DNA of 64,000 nucleotides from Cruorifilaria tuberocauda. Its lineage: Eukaryota > Nematoda > Chromadorea > Rhabditida > Onchocercidae. Below the pieces are notes generated by a model, which saw only the letters and a program-made list of their open reading frames with translations, was not told where the DNA came from and did no database searches. The position numbers were made by a program, and so were the translations under genes. The stretch lies in assembly GCA_013365365.1 (NCBI GenBank), contig JABVXU010000020.1, forward strand, positions 1 through 64,000. The letters are read 5' to 3'. Of the stretch, positions 7,616 through 20,252 are shown piece after piece (the first letter of the stretch is position 1; each line of letters opens with the position of its first letter).

Positions 7616-10231
7616 CTAGGAATTTAATTTAGTGATTCGTTCTTCCAGCCTAATGATATCACCACCAAGTTTCTCTAAAGCTGCGTGCGTTTGTTGACGG
7701 AAATCAAACAACATCATTTCTTCTCTTTCCATCGTTTTGGCTAACTGTGAACGGATACCCGTCAACTGACTTAATTTTTTACTGAACTGCTCCGCTAAAA
7801 ATTTACTAAGCCTTAATAAAAAAAATTCATATTTTTAGCATAATAATTATTTCAATATTTCTTGTCCATCTAACTTCATTACTGAAAATTTGGATTCTAT
7901 AAGTTATTTTCTCTTTTATCTATCACAACTAAAACAGTTCTCATATAATTCATCGATCGTGGAAAAGCTTACTCCAAAACTTTAACGAAATTATTACCTT
8001 GTTCATGAAGTTTTCTTAAATCATACATTCTTTTAACTGCGGAAGATAAGCCAGTGCAAGCTACATCCCATCGACTCATCATCTCATATAGCTTATCAAC
8101 TTTTTCCTCGAACTCCGAATTACCTTTTTCCTTCTTTTTTTCTTCCACCTGCAAACTTGCAGCAGGTCCCGTGAAAATAAAAGTTCAACAAAAGAGATAG
8201 AGTTTCGATACGATCAATTGCTAATTTCTACTCGATTATGGAGAATGCAGCTTAAGCTGTCAAAGTCCATTTTACCTTAATTACATTTTTGCAACATGTT
8301 CTGAAAATTTTTTAGTGCACGTGAAGAATATTTCATGAAAATGAAATATTCTGCACGTGCACTAAAAAAATATTATAGTAGGAAAGCAACATCAAAAAAT
8401 TGTCTTAGAAATAATACACCTACAACAGTATGAAATAAAAGAATACTTGCTGTAGTTTAGAAAGAAGCTGTGTGATACGTGAATGAAGACCATCAACATG
8501 AGCAGGATGCAACAACTGTACGCGCATACGTAAGTCTTCAACTGCTTCGGCAATTGGAATTTTGCAGATTTTCATGTATTCATCACAGCCAGCACCAACA
8601 CCATCAATCATCTGCTCCAGACGGTTGATTCGATTCTCCAAAACTGCGAGACGCACGTTCACAACGTTACTTTCGTTGAAAAGGGTTGCATCTTTTGTTT
8701 TGTTATCTCTGCAAATTTTCCGCGATAAAATCAATTAAGTCGAAGATTTTTACTTCCATTCTCCAGCTCTCTAATTGAGGCTTCGTTTATATATTTACAC
8801 AAACATTAGACTGCAAATTCTATAAAAGGATGACATTTAAATTACCTAACTTATTTAGAGATCTAATTTGTTCGCTGTCTCCACCAAGTATAACTAATAT
8901 AACGTGGAAAAGATCTGAACTTTCAAGTAATAATAATTAAAACTGTTAACAGTAAAAGATAAGAGTTTTTAGAACTTCGAGTTTTTCAATTTGCGTTAAA
9001 TGACTTACTTCTTTTCACTTTGAATGCAAGTCGTAATGCTATCTTTATTGATTTGCAAAGCTTTCAGCGTCTCCAACATAGCAATCAAATCTTCTTCATT
9101 AACAACACATGCGTCTGGTTTTTCGGATATTTTCTAAAAAGGAAAAAACAAAATATCCTTAAATTTAATTATATCGTACAGAACTGTAGTCTGGAAAAAC
9201 AGAGGTTATTATTGTTTCATTATAAAATTGATACTTTTGGTTAATATCGCTATTAAAACAGCTGAAGAACAACATAAGAAAGGTTTCAAATGTTCGATAT
9301 TATTCAAGACGCTGCCATACTTAATGTTAAAAACAAAAACCAGTGATCATACCAAACCTGCGCTTGTACTGCTTCTGCCAGATCATTTAGTTCACAGTTT
9401 AAGCGAGTAAACTTCTGCTCCAGCGTTTCTATTTCATCTGCGTAAGGTCCAACGACTTCAAGTACATACGAACCACTACCATACCCACAGCGCCTTCTGC
9501 GCGCAATAGAATCCGAAAAATCTATATAGATATACTAGGCTAGAGAATATCAATTTTCGCAGCCCAAGAAGATACTTGTATATTGAGAAATCCGAGCAAG
9601 TATTTGCTGTTAGTGAATTCTACGGATGAACTAATAAGAAACGAGCACAGCAATAATTCGCTTCGTGCAATTAAAAAATGGTTAAATTTAATACCGAGAG
9701 TTAAATAAATGATAGGTAGATGAAGTGAGAATCAAAAAAGTACTCACCGACATTTTCTGTGCTCAATAATCGACCTTTAAAACGTTTCAGAGCGCTATCA
9801 ACGTCGATGTGTATACGCTCTACTTCTGAAACATAATAAATTGAGAAAATTTTAGTTCAGAAACACATTACTCATTTCAATAAGTGGATGAAATGCGAAT
9901 GTGTTTGCGTTGTAAAAGCGCTTTATATGTCAAAGAGAAGTTTTACATACGCTATATCAAGCCGTTAAAAAAGATTTTGGTTGCAAAATCTCAATCATAA
10001 GCTATTGTTCTTTCACAAAAGTAAATTTCGTTCGCAGGCTATCCTCGACAACGAATTAATAGTCTGTGTAATTTATTACAAACAGCAGTAAAAATTCGGG
10101 ATTATGAAAATTTAGCTCTAATGGAAAAAAATGAAATGACCTTCCGATTCAGTGATCTCATCTTCAATCATTTGTTGATCATCCTCCGGTAAATCTTCTG
10201 TCTCATAAACATCTTCTTTTCGCAATGACAT
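7616..10231 (-). CDS. dnc-2: Dynactin subunit 2 (dynamitin, p50)
   Basis: Dynamitin is the shoulder subunit of dynactin, linking the p150 arm to the Arp1 filament. The complex activates cytoplasmic dynein for vesicle transport and spindle work. Seven exons can be read: about 10231-10139, 9826-9748, 9522-9358, 9135-9012, 8711-8450, 8150-7971 and 7800-7616. The protein opens with MSLRKEDVYETEDLPEDDQQ, the conserved acidic N-terminus of the family. The middle and C-terminal exons are rich in E, K and L heptads (for example the stretch around ENRINRLEQMIDGV), which fits the coiled-coil body. The last exon ends EERITKLNS and a TAG stop. The start codon was chosen because the conserved family N-terminus begins there. 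The gene is divergent from the GalNAc-transferase. The fifth intron contains a strong hairpin. Confidence 0.9.
8309..8370. repeat. Near-perfect 29-bp inverted repeat inside a dnc-2 intron
   Basis: The left arm 8309-8337 and right arm 8342-8370 are reverse complements with a single mismatch and a 4-base loop (GAAA). The arms contain AGTGCACGTG and AATATTTCAT. The hairpin lies in the intron between dynamitin exons five and six. It could be a miniature foldback element or a structured RNA. The very small loop argues against a canonical microRNA precursor. Confidence 0.75.
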
Positions 10232-12094
10232 TTTTTCCAATATTATCTGAATATATTACCCTGAAAGAGAAGCTATGTAAGCATCCATTAAGGAATCACA
10301 CATCTTATGCAGAAATTACAGGTCAATAAGCGAATAGAGCAGGTCTGCATGAGTCATACACGCACTTAGAAGAATAAATAGGCAGATATATCTACGAAAG
10401 TAGTAATCCTAGCAATATAACCCGCTATATCTTCCCAGGAAATCGCATCTTCCGATGAAATTCCTCACACCACTTTGCAAACCATAACAATTGTCCGGCT
10501 AGAAAGCAGAAACAACAAGCGCTTGGAACAAACATAACGTCTACATGGCCCTTGCTAGTGAGACGAACAGTTTGCATGAGATGGACTGACTCTCAGACCG
10601 GTCAAGGGGACGCGTTCCACACGTTGATGGTAGCTGTCCACCCATTTTGCAAACTAATCTGAAATGGGTGTTAAGTTAGAAGATTGAAGAAGTATCAGTA
10701 CTTTCTTCCTCCTCTCGTTTGAAGGTAACGTTTGATGAGAGTTTTGAAGAGCAAATAAGGGGAAAAAAATAACATCAGAGCGCTAGGGAATCTCCTTTCT
10801 TTGACGATCACAAATCTCGTTCATTTTAACATTGATTTACAATGCTTTCTGAAATTTTTATTTTCTGTCAAGAATCAGTCATGTTTCACTCACTATTATT
10901 ATAAATTCTATTAACTTCACTGTAATCATTGGCACTAAACAAGTCTGCTCAGTTTATAGATAACAGATTTCATAATTAAATCATTCAAATGCTCAACGGT
11001 AATTTACTTCCTGCTGTATACATATCTTTTCATTTTGTATGCAGTCCACTTCGAATGGATTTTATCTAAGATTTTATTCATCTGTTTTATCCAATATCGT
11101 CTTATCCAATACTTCTTGTATTTCTATCTGCAATAATATAAACGAGTTATAATAAAGTTCTGGGGAGGAAAAATGAAATGTAGAAAGTGCTGTGTTTAAT
11201 TTCAGATTTGAATACATTTTGATACATATTGAAATTTGTCTTTTAATTAGCTAGTACAAATCAAAGAGCATTGCAGATTCAATGAGCTAAAATATTTTAA
11301 TTTTCAGATGATTAGAAACTACTGCTTTTTTTAGTATACAAAGCGTGAATACGTAAATACTGAGGATTAAAAGAAAGTGCTTAAAATTTTATACAAAGTA
11401 ATACAAGGAAGTTCATTAACTAGTGGCTATTCGTTTGATCAGTCTAGCGAATAGAATTTCATATTTTTTTTCATCTGAAAAATGAAAGGACCATTCTTGT
11501 ACAGCCTTCTCATTACACATCATCTTTCTTCTACCAAAAGAGCATTATGGAGTTTATTCCCTCTTCTTCTTTTAATTAACGATTCTAACTCTATTCCATC
11601 CTCGAATCTAGCACTGCCTCACTTTGATTGCAGTACTATCTTTCATATACTTTAATTGTTTAATTATCTCCTTTTCTCTCCTAATCTTTTGAATACGATG
11701 AGTAAAATGATTGACTTGAAATAAAAAGTGATAAAGATAGCAAGAACAGGGCCATTTCGTCTCTTTCTTTAATGATTAATTAATTTTTTGATAACACAAA
11801 ACTTATTACGAAAATGATAATTTAATTTTATATTTTACTGTTATTCTAAACTTTTGATTTCAATATGCAATCTAGTTTTCTAAAGTGTTTCGTGTTTCCT
11901 TATCGTCAACTTTGTTAATAAGACATCTAATTTTGTTGCTGCCTAAATATAGCATTTGCTACCTTTTTAACGGCAGAATTCATTTCAGGTAAAAAACGGC
12001 GGTTATTGGCATTTCAGTAAGTAAAGAACGGCTGTTGTATCTTTGGGGATTGCAGCTTATCCATCGATTGATTGGTGTAATATTCAATAGTGAC
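10232..12094. promoter_or_regulatory. Divergent intergenic region between dnc-2 and gly-5
   Basis: The 1.86 kb between two divergently transcribed start codons must hold both promoters. A patch at about 10540-10640 is GC-richer than the flanks. It is followed by a short inverted repeat with arms CCCATTT and AAATGGG at about 10641-10670. The sequence just before the gly-5 start contains TTTCAG at about 11984-11989 and again near 12012-12017, either of which could be a spliced-leader acceptor. No coding exon was recognised. Confidence 0.45.
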
Positions 12095-15000
12095 ATGGGC
12101 GCTCTGGTGTTCCCACGAAGACGCTCGCACGTATTTAAATTATTACTTATGATACCAGCAGTTTGGTTATGTGTTATACTATATTTTTCCACTTCTACGA
12201 AAACATCGGACAAGGTAAAATAATTTGTGTGATTAGTAGATTTATAGATAGATAGTGGTAGATATGCTGATATACCTTTATTGCTATGATCGATTGAGAA
12301 TAATGTACTGGGATAAGTAGAGTGAAAATTTTCAGGTCTTTTCTGTAAGGCATCCAAAAATTGATTTACCGAAACTGCATAAATTAGAAGGCTTTGGTCC
12401 TCCTATATCAATCAAACCTGCCGTTGAAGTCGAGGAGAAGTTTCCTGCTCGAGGTATCGATGTTAGGATTGAAAGGGTATATTTCTTAATTCGCTATCAG
12501 GCGATTTTACAAGAGTGAGAAATTTTCTGTAATATTTCTAGTCGATAGATGTAAAAATAATTTTTGTACTTCCAAATAGTTATAGTACATTAGACTACTA
12601 TGGTGTGGATCGAGCGAAGAGAAAGTCTAGCTCATGAGGCAGAAATTCTGTAGTCACAAATTATCGTAAATTGCAGGGGAAAATTCCTAGGCCAAACAAG
12701 GTACTGTTCAATCGGGATTCTCCTATCTATAAACGAGGTGATGAACATCAGCCAGGTGAAGGTGGGAAAGCAGTGATAGTCGATAGAAATGTTAGTATTT
12801 TCAGTTTCTTTTTGTTTAATTTTATTGCAAATTTAAACAAAGTAACCTTGCACTCTATAAGTGCATCATTTTCCAGAAACTAAATCTTAGTGAAAAAAGA
12901 ATTTACGATGATGGATTTAGCAAGAATGCTTTTAACCAATACGTCTCAGATATCATTTCGATACACAGGAGTTTGCCTAGTTATATCGACGAAGAGTGGG
13001 TTATCTTCAAAACCTTTTTTTTAATGAAAATTGAGCTGCAGTCCCTCTCCTTATTCATTTATTACTTTTCTTATAAGTGAAAAGATTTATTGGAGTTTAT
13101 TTTCGCAATACAGATAATATAATGAAGAATATTAGAAAATCGTGCCTTCTGTACGATTATTATCCTATTATGTATTTAACAGAACATTGAATTTTTATTA
13201 TTTATTATTTTTATTAGACCGCTCGAAAATGAAAAAAGAGCCAAGAATGAACTTAATTTAAAGCATTCATTCTCTTATTGGGCTAATTCTCTATTGGTTT
13301 CCTTCAGATGGCGTTATCATGATCAACTTCATTTATTTGCTTAAACTGAAAAATTTTTCATGCATTTTTTCATGCATTATTCTAGATGTAAAACCGAAAA
13401 ATATGCTAGCGATCTTCCAAACACATCAGTTATCATATGTTTTCATAATGAAGCTTGGTCAGTTTTACTCCGCACGGTACATAGTGTACTTGAAAGGACA
13501 CCGGAAAATTTACTTACTGAAATTATCTTGGTTGATGATTTCTCAGACATGGCACATCTCAAGGTTTTTTTTCTCCAAAATTCGCAAAATTACATTGATA
13601 AATAGTCTTTCACTCAAGTTTTCTGGGAAGCACATCCTGATCTTTTGAATAAAAAGCATATTTCGATTTCTTTCTACATCAAAACATGGAGATATTGTCG
13701 GAAATTTTAGCTAAGCTAAAGTAACACTACTGCAAGTTCTTTCTTATGAGAGCTTGCTCAGTAGCGTTTGCCAAATGCTATCTAGACGAATTGATGTGAT
13801 GATTTGGAATTACCGAAAATAATTTAAGACTTCTTACTTTCGCTGCTTTGCCTAGAAGTTAGATTTTATATAGGCTGATTTGGAAACTTATATGCGGCAG
13901 TATCCGAAAGTTCGTATTTTGCGATTGGAAAAACGTGAGGGTCTAATAAGAGCTCGTATAAGAGGAGCTGCCATTTCAAAAAGCCCTGTGATCACATATC
14001 TCGACTCTCATTGTGAATGTGTAGAAGGTAATTTGTCCTCGCATTTAATTTCTTCTCTTATTTTCTGTGAAGCATAATTTTTAATTTTATTTTTATTTTT
14101 TGTATGCGTCGGTTTATAAGCCAAGATTACCGTTAATTGCTTTTTGTCAGATAATAATTTAGCGTTAGGACTTTTGAAAGATTTTCAATGAAAAATCGAT
14201 TTTTATAATCTTTCAAAGTTCTGTTCCGTTTCAGGTTGGATGGAACCTCTTTTGGATCGAATCAAAAAGAATCCGAAGACAGTAGTATGTCCCGTCATTG
14301 ACGTAATTGATGATAACACCTTTGAGTATCACTATTCAAAGGCTTACTTCACGAATGTTGGTGGTTTCGATTGGTCTTTACAGTTTAATTGGCATGCCAT
14401 TCCTGAGAGGGATCGTAAAGGTAGAAGGAACATTGATCCCGTCAAGTACGAATTTTGACATTAAAAATTTCGTATGTAATATCAGGACGTTATGTGTGAC
14501 TGAAGATGTGAGGTTATAAATACAAAAATCGGACACTAGGAATTTTTCTTCACTGCTGTGAAAAAAAAAAAAGAAGAACGAATAATTCTTTATCTTTACA
14601 TTTGATTATCCGGTGTTGCAGACGTCGAAATTTTTCATCTCTTTTCAGGTCTCCAACTATGGCTGGTGGTCTTTTTTCCATTCATCGTTCTTTCTTTGGA
14701 GAATTAGGATCTTACGACCCTGGTCTCGATATCTGGGGTGGAGAAAACTTGGAACTTTCATTCAAAGTTAGTTAATTATATTGCGGAAAATATTTGCGGT
14801 ATTAATGAACTGCTGTGATAAATCGTAAACTAAAAAGTTTCCCTATTTCTAGGTAGTAAAATATAAATGAAGTCAATGTCATTTTGTGAAACAATATTGT
14901 TGATGATGTGATCGTTACTTTAATTTTTTAATTTTTTTCATTTTTCACTTTTATCTGATAAAACAAATATTTGCTCTAGATATGGATGTGTGGCGGAAGA

Positions 15001-18000
15001 CTGGAAATTGTTCCCTGCAGTCATGTTGGTCATATATTTCGCAAACGTTCACCTTATAAATGGCGTTCTGGTGTGAATGTTTTGAAGAGAAATTCTGTTC
15101 GATTAGCTGAAGTGAGTTGACGAATCCTGGAAATTGTTTTCCGTATATTCTTGAGTTTGATTAATGATAATGATACAGCATCCATTTTTTATTTTTGAAA
15201 AATTTCAAGTAGCTTTTGAAGATTACATAAACCTACTGAAAAGACGAAGAAATATATTGTAGGTATGGATGGATGAATACAAGAAGTATTACTACGAGAG
15301 AATTAACAATGACTTGGTAAAGTTTTCTTTTTTCATAATATGCGCAAGAAAAGTAAGAAAGCAAATGTTTGTTCTCTAATACTTACCCTTTAAAATATTG
15401 AAACATTCGTTCATGTTAATTATAAAAAAATTATAATTATTAATAACTAGGGTGATTTTGGTGATGTAAGTGGCAGAAAAGCATTGCGTGAGAAACTACG
15501 GTGTAAATCTTTTAAGTGGTATCTGGATAATGTATATCCGGAATTGTTTGTTCCAGGAGATGCTGTTGGAAAAGGAGAGGTATTTTTTTCAGCATAAAGT
15601 TGTTAATTACTAAACTATTTATGAACTTTTAAGATTTTCATTGCATTTAGGATTTAGGATTTTCGTTTTTTTTTTTGTATATTCTTTCCCATCCTGTTTT
15701 CGAATGCTGCAATTTGCTGGTCTTCGTTTTTCGTTCTTGTGCTAATGCTGCTCTTGTTTTCGGCGTTATCCATCAGATTCGTAATAACATGTGGATGTAA
15801 GAACAGTTTGAGTACTAATCTATTAATCTTATAACGATAAAAGAGCATATGCAAACACTTCATTTTATATGCACTTTTTATTTTGTAGTTCTTAAATCCT
15901 TTGCTGTATATTATATTAATATCTTACATTTTGTTATCAGATATTTTGAATTAGTCCAAATCAATTCACATTCTTGATAACTGGGCACCAAATGTGTTTG
16001 TTGATGAAATAGTACAAGATTTTCCTGGTTATACTAGCCTAGCTTGTAAGATTTTTTATTACGTGGAATTTTTAACTTAGAAGGGAGTACTTTGAGAAGG
16101 CTGAAGTTCATATGTTTCTTTTCATCTTTATATTAATTAAAGTATGGAATCTAATAGACTTTCTCAAAAAAGCAGGAGTTACGGTACTTGATGATTTAAA
16201 TATTTGTATAGCAGATAATTTTTATATGTTTTTATATTTCCAATATTTGTTCGTAGATTATTGACTCATTAACAAATATTTCATAGAATGGTAAAGAAAC
16301 AGTAGTAGTAATTGGGAGGATCACTTTCAGATTCGTAATAAAGGCGAAGTGGCGGGGGATATTGTCCAACACTGCTTGGATAGTGAGGTGGGCGATGAGA
16401 TTCAAAAAGTCGTTATTGCGTTTCCATGTCACAAGAATGGTGGTAACCAGGTTCCTTAATTCAAGCACTGAATAATTTTTTTATCATCAAAACTGTTTGG
16501 TTAACCTGTATATCTCTTCTTATGTCGTAGCGCTGTTGAGTATTTGAAAGAGGCTCACGATAGTAGATTATTAAATTTAATTCACTTATTGATTGACAAG
16601 CTTCCTGTGCAGCAGTCCTTTTGATCTTTAACGACCAGTTTGTTACATGTTTGTTCTCATGTATCTTGTTTGAGCATTACGGCTACAAACTGATCGTTAA
16701 GATGTTTCAAAAAACTATATTAAGGTGGCACCTGCTTATTGGAATCTGCGCATGATCCCTTTTGCATAGGAAAAATGGTGTTGATTGCAGTTTTTCAGTG
16801 CAGTTGTTGTTGCTCGCAGCTTCTGTCAATATTTCATGTTTCACTTTCGTCCATGTTTGTCTTTCTTTTATGTCAAGCAGTACTGCAGCACTGTCTTCGG
16901 AAAATTATCTTTTTCGTAGTTTCTTGAATAGGAATGGTCATGCGGAAAATTCATGAGGGAATAACATGCATCTCTATAGATTCGCAACAGAGGAGGCGGA
17001 TCGAAGAATTGTTTAGATTGGGCGTCGCGAGGAAACCAAAGATCAGCAAATGCAGGTCTGTACTGGTGTCATAAGAAGGGCGGTAATCAGGTATACTTCG
17101 TAACTTTAGTGTGGCTGTAATATATTTGTGCTATTCTCTTCAAAAGTCTGATAAGCTTCTGTTCTCGAAATATTTCTTATTAACATAGGATTTTGAAAAG
17201 TAGTAATACCTGTCTTGTAAGATAATAACATCAGATATCGCCAAAAGTAAGAGGAACCTATGGCCATTTCTATTGTTTGAATTTTTTAGAATCTATGACA
17301 CAGAACAAAGGAACATGTGTCTAGTTATTATAATTAGAACCGTTAAATACAAGACACGTTTACGTATCTGCTGATATCATTAAAAGCCAATTCATTATGA
17401 ATTGGAAATTTTTCATAAAAAACTTTTTCTACTATCACTTCTTTTAGCTTTTTTCGAAAACCAGATACAGTTTGACCCACGTCCCGCTCATTTCTCACTT
17501 TTTTTCCACGTATACAATAACTCTCAGTTTGCTGATTAACTTTCCATGACTAAGAATGCTGCAAGCAAAATCAATTTTATGGTTCTCGAAAATCGAGAAA
17601 AAATTTTAAATCTAAACATTTTGGTTTTATAAATCTAATATTTAAATGGCTCTCATTTGCGCAGATTCCGAGGAAAACGTTCTACAGTTGTAAAATACAC
17701 TTATTCGAAATTTTTTTTATAAAATCATTTGTCAGTACTGGATGATAACGAAAGATGGCGAAATACGGAGAGATGATTCGTGTATTGATTATGCCGGTAT
17801 CGATGTTATGGTTTATCCGTGTCATGGAATGAAGGGTAATCAAGAATGGAAATATCTTCCTTATGTAAGTTCAGCTTTTTGTGTACAAAATTTTTGATTA
17901 AATACTTATTATTACAATTAACAGAAGGATTCAGTTACCGGATCATCCGATTTTTCTTTAATATCCTATGCAATTTTTTTCTTCGGTGAAGAATCGAAGC

Positions 18001-18191
18001 TCTCTAAATTCAAAATTCTATAGAAAAGTCAAATTCTCCAAATTCTTCACGTCACAACGAACGAATGTTTGGAAATGTCGAGGGATGGTGCTAAATTGTT
18101 GATGAATGTTTGTGATCAAGCAAATCCATATCAGCATTGGTTGGTTCAGGAATTCAATCGAACGCTAGCTAAACAATATAGATTACTATGA
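12095..18191 (+). CDS. gly-5: Polypeptide N-acetylgalactosaminyltransferase (GLY-5-like)
   Basis: This Golgi enzyme moves GalNAc from UDP-GalNAc to Ser/Thr, the first step of mucin-type O-glycosylation (GT27 family). The start at 12095 gives a type II membrane protein: [10 protein letters not shown], then a hydrophobic anchor [16 protein letters not shown]. Later exons show PGEGGKAV and [16 protein letters not shown]. The catalytic GT-A fold follows, with [25 protein letters not shown], the metal site DSH in [25 protein letters not shown] and CSHVGH. The C-terminus is a ricin-type lectin domain of three repeats, carrying CLD/QYW, CID/QEW and CLE/QHW. Exons run through 12095-12214, 12336-12477, 12677-12790, about 12878, 13385, 13875, 14235, 14650, 14980, 15263 and 15452, then an alternative lectin exon, about 17735 and 18023. 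The TGA stop ends at 18191. All catalytic motifs are intact. The choice of gly-5 over other gly paralogues rests on the alternative exons and remembered synteny. Confidence 0.88.
14163..14216. repeat. Imperfect inverted repeat in a gly-5 intron
   Basis: Arms of about 15 bases (ACTTTTGAAAGATT near 14169 and AATCTTTCAAAGTTC near 14207) pair with one bulge around an AT-rich loop. The repeat lies just upstream of the acceptor of the exon starting near 14235. It may fold in the pre-mRNA, but the short arms in AT-rich sequence could be chance. Confidence 0.4.
16331..16450 (+). CDS. gly-5: gly-5 alternative lectin exon A (acidic version)
   Basis: This 120-base exon, in phase 0 at both ends, is flanked by TTTCAG and a GT donor. 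It begins [10 protein letters not shown], contains CLDSE and ends CHKNGGNQ, so it supplies the alpha repeat of the ricin-type lectin domain. By my count it has six acidic and four basic residues apart from histidine (net about -2). It joins the previous exon (ending VGKGE) and the following one (starting YWM) without shifting frame, and the QxW motif is completed across the junction. Exon B at 16980 encodes the same structural unit, so including both would duplicate the repeat. Confidence 0.82.
16623..16703. repeat. Long imperfect hairpin between the two alternative gly-5 exons
   Basis: The segments 16623-16643 (GATCTTTAACGACCAGTTTGT) and 16685-16703 (ACAAACTGATCGTTAAGAT) are reverse complements apart from one bulged T and one mismatch that is a tolerated wobble in RNA. 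The loop is about 41 bases. Outside the main stem TTTTGA and TCAAAA can also pair. The hairpin sits in the middle of the intron separating exons A and B. Confidence 0.6.
16980..17090 (+). CDS. gly-5: gly-5 alternative lectin exon B (basic version)
   Basis: This 111-base, phase-0 exon lies between TCTATAG and a GTATAC donor. It begins [10 protein letters not shown], contains CLDWAS and ends CHKKGGNQ, matching exon A at both ends and at the CLD and CH..GGNQ motifs. The middle differs. Its charge is strongly basic, with seven Arg/Lys against one Asp (net about +6). Splicing it in place of exon A keeps the reading frame into the exon near 17735. It looks like an old exon duplication that has diverged in function. 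Confidence 0.8.
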
Positions 18192-20252
18192 CTGTAGCAA
18201 TTCTTTTTTATGGATTATTGTACGAAAAAATCGAAGTAGCGATAAGTCAAGTAGAGAAAGAGAACAAGCGAAAAAGACAAACAAAAGAATTTCAGTTCCC
18301 ATCTAATCAACTTATATATTATATATAAATGGTATTCCACTGCCATTTGAAAAATCTGTTTTCATTATCCTACCACTTACCATTGCTGTACTCTTTAGAT
18401 ATTCAATGAAATGCTTTTTTCCCTACCTATTGGCAGCAGCAGGTGAGCGCATAATTTTAATTTTGTAGAATTCACTTTTTAATTAACACGAAGTCGTATC
18501 TTGCTTGTAAAAAATAGATTGGTGAATTCTGTTTAACTTTAGTGGAAATTTCTCAAATTACTCCACCGTTGAATTAAAATTATTTCCTCTGTGAAGATAA
18601 TAATATTATTTGTGTGTTTATATTTTTTTTCGGAGAGAAGTATTCTTCTATGCTTGTTTCGTATTTTTCAATAATTTGATGTTATTTTTCTTATTTGTGT
18701 TATGCATTTAAACATTAAGCAATGCTTTCTCACTTCGTTTTATTTGCTCTTATTTATTTATGCATTTTTTGTAATCTAAGCGTGCTAAGTTAATTGATTT
18801 GTTTGTCCATTTTTCTCTCACATACTGCACTGGGGAATGAGGATTACACATTACTAATGTTAAGTCAGTAATGAGATTCCTATAAAAGGTCTATCAAGCA
18901 TATTGAATTTTTGAAAACTTTGGAGATAGAATTACTTCGTCGACAGAACTTTCCTAGTAAGATGTGAAGTCATGACAGATTCATCACAGAAAAGAGCATA
19001 ATGCTCCTCCCAATCTATCATAATTGTACAAACAAACTATTATGTATCCTACTATTTGCTGTGTCTACCTTTGATAACTGTGATATGGTATTTATATCAT
19101 CCCTTTTATCACTTATTCCTTTTTCCCGTTTTCACTTCCTTTTAGCCAAGCTTTATCCATTCATTTCTTGATTTTACTCATTCCAAATATTCTTTTCTAT
19201 TTTTTCTCTCCAAAAAATGCTTACATTGGAAATTTTATAATATAGAGTGAAGAAAAGGTAGGAAACCTTCTTGCACATTCCAAGCAGACGCACAGGTCAC
19301 TATTGGCGGGTAATATTTGCGGGTCGGTCCTGTTCTTCTTTCCAATAACGAGCTCGAAGAATTCTTTAGTCTATAAGTAAAAATAATGCAGTTGTTCTTA
19401 TCATTTTTCACTTTTTGCAGTATTTTTTATTTCGATATTGAAGCCTTTCATGTGCGTGCAGTAGGTTCATGTGAATGCTGCACAATGATATATTGATATT
19501 GCTCTGGTGCATCACGTTAGTAATTCATTATCTGGTGATATTTTAAATTCTTTATTTATAAGCATCGTGTGAATCGGTCTCTGAAGTAATCCAATGATTT
19601 TAAACTTCTCGATTATAAGAAAAAAGTATTCAGATTCAACTCTTAAATCTTTGGTTAGCGAAAAAAAAGTTGCAACTCCAATTCTTGCTAAAATATGGCA
19701 AAATTATTCAGTGTTTTATTCCCAAATCTTCTTAAGATTGTTTTTTGTCTCAAACACTTTTTGCAAGATTAAGGAAGTTATTTTTGAGGAACTTTCCGTT
19801 ATTTATTAACTGGTTTTTTATGTATTTATTTTAAATCTATTTAAATTAAGTTGGTTTCTATTTGGTGCGTATAATTAATTTATTGCCTTTATTTTGATAT
19901 TCCATTGCTTATTTCTGTTTCTGTTCCCATATTATATATGTGCCTTTTCACCCGTTTTTTCTATTTTTATTTGTAATAGAAAGGAACTTTAAAATAAATC
20001 TCTGGAAAATATTTCATTTTTTTTTTTTTTTTTTTTTTTTTTGGAAAGGCAATTTACCGAGGTGATTGTTTCGGTTCTCACTTTTATAGAAGGACATATA
20101 ACAGTTTGTATTAAATACACACAATAGTTTCAGTAATATGTCGAGAACAATGCATTTTGGTGGGATTAAATAATTATCACATATTTTTTCGCATTTAATT
20201 GAACCATTTTATGAAAATGAGGTCATAATTTGCCACTAATATCAGAGTTGTC
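18192..20252. other. Intergenic region between gly-5 and the SAM carrier
   Basis: The first part is probably the gly-5 3' untranslated region. The rest is AT-rich, with no exon supported. A run of 26 T lies at 20017-20042. An open frame at 19594-19809 encodes a low-complexity peptide with no family resemblance. The carrier promoter should lie near the right end. Confidence 0.5.

Follow-up and report, generated by a model that had tools for sequence, protein, structure and literature searches.

Isoforms of gly-5 are made by splicing in Caenorhabditis elegans, so the splicing of this gene in a nematode is probably not new in itself. The closest described system is Drosophila PGANT9, in which exons 8A and 8B are alternatives for the same alpha-repeat slot, one basic and one acidic. 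According to the accessible part of PMC6115407, the PGANT9 charge switch is made by tissue-specific splicing. The alpha loop lies close to the active site and its charge sets peptide preference, the tip being Lys542/543 in PGANT9A and Glu541-543 in PGANT9B; the acidic form takes the basic peptide PTTTK, and the basic form takes the acidic peptide PTTTE. Splicing of Drosophila pgant5 into 5A and 5B also shifts GalNAc-transferase preference to charged mucin peptides (PMC12776162, accessible part), but there splicing swaps part of the catalytic domain, whereas at the locus described here the alternative exons encode part of the lectin domain.

The window (the whole stretch analysed, 64,000 nucleotides of Cruorifilaria tuberocauda DNA) contains a complete GalNAc-transferase gene on the + strand (12095-18191, start codon picked by inspection). 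The gene is composed of 13 constitutive and 2 alternative exons with GT/AG borders and consistent phases. Constitutive exons 1-3 (12095-12214, 12336-12476, and 12677-12790) are followed by exons 4-6 (12877-12995, 13386-13563, and 13874-14027), 7-9 (14235-14445, 14649-14766, and 14980-15111), and 10-11 (15263-15316 and 15451-15579); the assignment of exons 1-11 is also backed by PDB matches to 6e4q/6e4r. Constitutive exon 12 (e12; 17736-17864) encodes the beta repeat and begins with YWM, and exon 13 (18024-18191) encodes the gamma repeat and ends with the stop codon. On the - strand, at about 9000-10230 of the window, is a reading frame starting MSLRKEDVYETEDLPEDDQQ, which by its motif may be dynactin subunit 2 (dynamitin)-like.

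In a PDB sequence search with the spliced A form as the query, the top matches are PGANT9A (6e4q, 754.1 bits) and PGANT9B (6e4r, 738.5 bits), far above the next, the best GalNAc-T1 (524.6 bits). The gene had been assigned to the gly-5 type in the first-pass annotation, and this search agrees; by best match, it is the orthologue of Drosophila PGANT9, GLY-5 in worm naming. The closest named proteins among the matches listed come from filariae, with Acanthocheilonema viteae P0001 at 97.0% identity over 367 residues of the catalytic part; C. elegans P0059, named GalNAc-transferase 5, is 78.1% identical to the window product over 366 such residues. P0001 and P0023, both close relatives, exceed the cut-off for Pfam families PF00535, PF02709, and PF00652; searched singly, e11, A, and B give no Pfam match, A and B being too short alone. 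Judged by homology, the product is a GalNAc-transferase with a catalytic domain followed by a ricin-type lectin domain.

The two alternative exons lie within the 2.1 kb that separate e11, ending in GKGE, from e12. Exon A (16331-16450, + strand) encodes an acidic alpha repeat of 40 residues (net charge -2, pI 5.4), and exon B (16980-17090, + strand) encodes a basic alpha repeat of 37 residues (net charge +6, pI 10.5). Both are in phase 0/0. Exon A starts with ATTCGT after the acceptor tcactttcag and ends with ACCAG before the donor gttcct; exon B starts with ATTCGC after atctctatag and ends with ATCAG before gtatac. The gene, its exons, and the charges of the pair are thus directly apparent, and the earlier proposal of two phase-0 alpha repeats of opposite charge is borne out by splice borders and translations alike. 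As in pgant9, the aligned variable stretch starts after GE and ends with GGNQ before YWM.

Alpha-unit profiles built from relatives alone, excluding the window units, match exon A to nematode type 2 (71.6 bits) and exon B to nematode type 3 (83.0 bits) in a search of the window. The related beta repeat comes next, and the remaining matches have E of at least 0.2; the alpha-repeat signal of A and B is beyond chance. Both exons keep the conserved frame CxD...CH..GGNQ, whose C, D, C, H, G, N, and Q are invariant in 50 of 50 aligned sequences of both kinds, suggesting that sugar binding is probably retained in both forms. All four splice combinations (A only, B only, both, and neither) keep the frame. 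The frame therefore does not enforce exclusivity, and any exclusive use has to be imposed at the level of splicing. A and B are separated by an intron of 529 nt, enough to splice, which argues that steric exclusion is not the reason.

We consider it likely that A and B are mutually exclusive alpha-repeat alternatives of the PGANT9/GLY-5 orthologue, charge-matched to acceptors. Splicing would put either A or B into the alpha slot of the ricin-type lectin domain. The loop that faces the active site in PGANT9 would then be acidic in the A form (GDEI) and not acidic in the B form (RGNQ, in a strongly basic repeat). The A form would favour positively charged acceptor regions, as PGANT9B, and the B form negatively charged ones, as PGANT9A; by homology, the choice between A and B may thus switch substrates. 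When the tip is mapped by the residue numbers given in PMC6115407 (accessible part), Asp-Glu of exon A is positioned where PGANT9A has Lys542/543, and exon B has Gly-Asn there, with Arg before. Against a charge switch, the tip of the B form is just +1, and arthropod type 2 units are often neutral (8 of 23 are zero, among the matches listed). In addition, PGANT9A has a patch at Lys542/543, whereas the basic residues of exon B are scattered through its repeat.

AlphaFold2 models of two filarial relatives represent the A form (P0023, mean pLDDT 79.6) and the B form (P0001, mean pLDDT 80.8). Foldseek ranks the PGANT9 chains 6e4q/6e4r first by E-value for both. For PGANT9, the A form has TM-scores on target of 0.89-0.94 and the B form of 0.85-0.89; for GalNAc-T1, the values are 0.89-0.92 and 0.89-0.90, respectively. 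The GalNAc-T1 scores are equally high, so PGANT9 is not distinguished by its fold alone. In the A-form model, pLDDT falls below 50 at loop-tip residues 510-512; as modelled, the tip is a flexible loop.

Three protein searches (best 120 of 142, 408, and 485 matches) gave 249 proteins in total, and their alpha units were cut out from between GE and YWM. Among the matches listed, nematode units are of three kinds, with up to three alpha exons per model: type 1, basic (e.g., CLDCAVGRREKNKPV); type 2, acidic (e.g., CVDSAVGDEHHNKPV); and type 3, basic (e.g., GGGSKQCLDWAS). The models of Necator (P0018) and Syphacia (P0014) hold all three, in the order 1, 2, 3. Arthropods with such pairs include insects and crustaceans; all 13 of the listed arthropod models with two units open with a positive one (+2 to +5), and the second is neutral in 7 and negative in 6. 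The one tardigrade model listed, of Paramacrobiotus, has units of +3 and then -2. The listed mollusc and annelid entries have a single unit kind. The Danaus chrysippus model P0215 has three alpha units (+3, -2, and -3), the middle one lacking the usual CxD, and butterflies may have added a third alpha exon of their own.

Unit classes were set by the nearest labelled unit and are thus not blind to charge; with this reading, and counting unique units among the matches listed, nematode type 1 is positive in 23 of 24, type 2 negative in 33 of 38 and zero in 5, and type 3 positive in 20 of 20. Counted in the same way, arthropod basic units are positive in 48 of 48 (mean +3.6), arthropod acidic units have a mean of -0.6 (9 negative, 8 zero, and 6 positive of 23), and mollusc and annelid units are positive in 19 of 20. 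The sole negative type 1 unit, that of P0036, was probably misfiled by its nearest neighbour. Within multi-unit models, the type 2 unit has a net charge below that of its type 1 or type 3 neighbours in 31 of 31, among the matches listed. Summed over the four loop-tip residues, also among the matches listed, the charge is at most -2 in each of the 38 type 2 units; it is positive in 19 of the 20 units of type 3 and zero or positive in 23 of the 24 of type 1. The sum is negative in 19 and positive in 0 of 23 arthropod acidic units, positive in 43 of 48 arthropod basic units, and negative in 15 of 20 mollusc and annelid units despite the positive net charge of the latter. For these counts, the second unit of P0006 (mis-modelled) and that of P0068 (long insert) were dropped, and units longer than 46 residues were trimmed.

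The charges could be a by-product, with A and B as true alternatives that serve regulation or the tuning of GalNAc-glycopeptide binding. The alpha lobe may also bind GalNAc (PMC12776162, accessible part), its frame residues are invariant in both kinds, and the weakly basic tip of exon B and the many neutral second units of arthropods fit as well. However, the charge difference has the same direction from phylum to phylum, and loop charge sets specificity in PGANT9 according to the accessible part of PMC6115407. We regard a by-product as unlikely and retain charge matching as the preferred reading.

To see how many alpha units a spliced message carries, we used transcript-like entries, defined as those with sources only jgi, lgn, or ena and a longest contig below 6 kb (n = 72). 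A frame of several hundred residues in a contig of less than 6 kb, where the gene with introns needs 6.1 kb, points to spliced RNA. Among the matches listed, molluscs and annelids included, a single alpha unit is found in 72 of 72 transcript-like entries and in 134 of 172 other entries. The 72 include 22 mollusc or annelid entries, where no second exon is known, and the ecdysozoan count is fairer: 50 of 50 transcript-like entries against 98 of 136 others (Fisher p 2e-6, among the matches listed). For nematodes alone, the listed matches give 13 of 13 against 34 of 57 (p 0.003). These unit counts cover 244 of the 249 proteins (P0010, P0026, P0066, P0134, and P0186 were left out), with the units of P0140, P0211, P0215, P0221, P0224, P0239, and P0247 set by hand and the fused chimeric models P0011, P0020, P0058, and P0067 counted as one unit each. 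They contain 0 transcript-like entries labelled filarial and include near copies from one source that are not independent (P0031, P0033, and P0034; P0051 and P0054); the database is clustered at 90%, so isoforms within one cluster are hidden.

Two pairs of entries show different units in the same surroundings. The clearest example within one gene is that of the transcript-like entries P0034 (type 1) and P0051 (type 2), from a jgi nematode close to Panagrolaimus (P0067), which have 503 identical N-terminal residues; Steinernema P0015 (type 3) and P0035 (type 1) share a locus name and identical flanks. The mutually exclusive use proposed earlier is thus supported in relatives by the single unit of all transcript-like ecdysozoan entries listed, and by extension it is the expected behaviour in C. 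tuberocauda.

Filarial gene models give a mixed picture. Exons A and B are joined, in frame, in P0002, P0003, P0005, P0008, P0009, and P0010, as expected if both exons were constitutive and the lectin domain had an extra alpha repeat. This is highly improbable: a beta-trefoil has three lobes, two units occur in 0 of the 72 transcript-like entries listed, and the 38 multi-unit entries listed all have annotated records as their source (ncbi, uniref, or nr). Other models hold A only (P0021, P0022, and P0023) or B only (P0001, P0004, and P0007), as might be seen if one exon were decaying and the other alone used. The B-only model of A. viteae (P0001) has flanks identical to those of P0006, which holds A and a mis-modelled piece of B. 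Decay is still less probable, since both exons are open, with splice sites kept, and both recur in other Onchocercidae models with 78-98% identity. In the comparison of filarial orthologues suggested in the first-pass annotation, both exons are thus conserved; alternative use of A and B remains the preferred reading.

The exon set of this group differs from that of other nematodes. Type 1 is found in 0 of 18 listed filarial or spirurid models (P0001-P0012, P0016, P0017, P0021-P0023, and P0026). A search of the window for a third alpha exon, using profiles of the three nematode types and the two arthropod kinds, yielded nothing beyond A, B, and the beta repeat. A type 1 query against the 71.7-Mb genome of C. 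tuberocauda, with the 6 best candidates scored, gave no type 1, although a very decayed copy could escape; these candidates are an alpha exon of a paralogue, A, B, two beta-repeat exons, and a weak match with stops (E 1.5). Syphacia, which we take to be an outgroup to the filarial and spirurid group, keeps all three types, so the distribution reads as loss of an old basic exon. On the evidence of gene models, the filarial and spirurid group appears to have lost type 1, leaving type 3 to serve as the basic partner.

Alignment with PGANT9A and PGANT9B, which had been proposed as a check, places A and B in the same slot; exon B is not a direct counterpart of the PGANT9A exon and belongs to nematode type 3 rather than to the PGANT9A-like type 1. 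The window also differs from pgant9 in having the acidic exon first and the basic exon second, in the weaker loop charge of B, and in being known from sequence alone. Caenorhabditis gly-5 is an orthologous gene as well, and all three types are represented among its models P0030, P0053, and P0059. Of these, the C. elegans cluster P0059 has type 1, which is absent from the listed filarial models.

The first-pass annotation had left it between an independent and an ancient origin. The evidence leans towards ancient, given the same enzyme, the same slot, and the same order of basic before less basic in nematodes, arthropods, and a tardigrade, and we think a single origin of the nematode and arthropod pairs somewhat probable; alpha-unit trees rest on 37 columns, too few to decide between one origin and several. 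In the first tree (110 rows), two long branches joined. In the second (103 rows, after removal of seven long or odd ones from the 110), three constraint tests gave p 0.73-0.89, one constraint was already a group, and the two arthropod kinds grouped together with a support of 67. Constrained trees scored above the free tree, indicating that the search was shallow, and the tree with one basic clade scored above that with a nematode-only clade, the test rejecting neither. In the third (61 rows), p-AU is 0.42 for one basic clade, 0.51 for a nematode-only clade, 0.37 for separate nematode and arthropod clades, and 0.58 for an arthropod clade, which has the best likelihood; no arrangement was rejected.

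Alternatively, an exon already flanked by phase-0 introns may have been duplicated in tandem twice, giving the insect pair and the nematode pair separately. The equal standing of the constrained trees, the best likelihood of the arthropod clade, and the grouping of the two arthropod kinds are in line with this. So is exon A, which matches the arthropod basic and acidic profiles alike (32.0 and 29.4 bits), as are the exact zero of 7 of 13 second units in the listed two-unit arthropod models and the single unit kind of the listed mollusc and annelid entries. In addition, a GalNAc-transferase paralogue on the same contig (- strand, C222:189.9-194 kb, within 186500-194500) has, by translation only, a single alpha exon in a similar position, suggesting an old slot open to repeated duplication. 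In contrast, a basic unit leads in nematodes that have both type 1 and type 2, as it does in the two-unit arthropod models and the single tardigrade model; exon B is nearer to the arthropod basic than to the acidic profile (42.5 versus 27.6 bits); and the one-basic-clade tree scored above the nematode-only one. Independent duplication is a real but lesser possibility, and one ancient origin remains the reading we favour.

Two elements in the introns may bear on the history or the control of the pair. At 15773-15796 (+ strand), ATTCGTAATAACATGTGGAT stands between TCAG and gtaaga. The first 15 nt of this stretch (TCAGATTCGTAATAA) are an exact copy of the acceptor and start of exon A, and a consensus-like donor, gtaaga, follows after 20 exonic nt; use of the 20 nt would shift the frame. 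In 5000 intron shuffles, AG followed by IRN codons occurred in 40 and the exact 15-mer in 0. The element may be an exon relic near the expected site of the lost type 1 exon, or a decoy acceptor. The A-B intron contains an inverted repeat (16628-16700, + strand) with arms of 16 nt (16628-16643 and 16685-16700), 41 nt apart and 94% complementary. Folding of 16618-16710, a stretch picked after the repeat was noticed, has a z of -3.3 relative to shuffles; the entire A-B intron shows no folding advantage over shuffles (z 0.02), and an Rfam search of 12000-18300 gave no match. A regulatory hairpin at 16628-16700 is possible. The mis-modelled A. viteae P0006 seems to translate through the A-B intron and could encode the 5' arm of the inverted repeat.

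The kind of switch is already known from pgant9. The link to nematodes, the breadth across ecdysozoans, and the replacement of the filarial exon were not found in the open literature, which leaves most subscription journals outside its reach; there, no connection of gly-5 with the PGANT9 switch was recognised, and the accessible parts of PMC7614267, PMC10570059, and PMC4122909 hold nothing on one. The window pair is a real relative of the known switch at the level of orthologues, with exon turnover. A wider reading, which we put forward tentatively and hold to be slightly less than an even chance, is that the ecdysozoan ancestor had a charge-switch cassette in this enzyme whose polarity has survived changes in its exons: a third was gained in nematodes, and spirurids and filariae lost the original basic exon and pair the third with the old acidic one.

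The PGANT9 switch was described in one fly. If the cassette spans nematodes, arthropods, and tardigrades with its polarity kept through exon replacement, charge matching between enzyme and cargo would be general and selected, not an oddity of the salivary gland. If this is true, filariae are predicted to have two forms of the enzyme, one for acidic and one for basic secreted or surface proteins.
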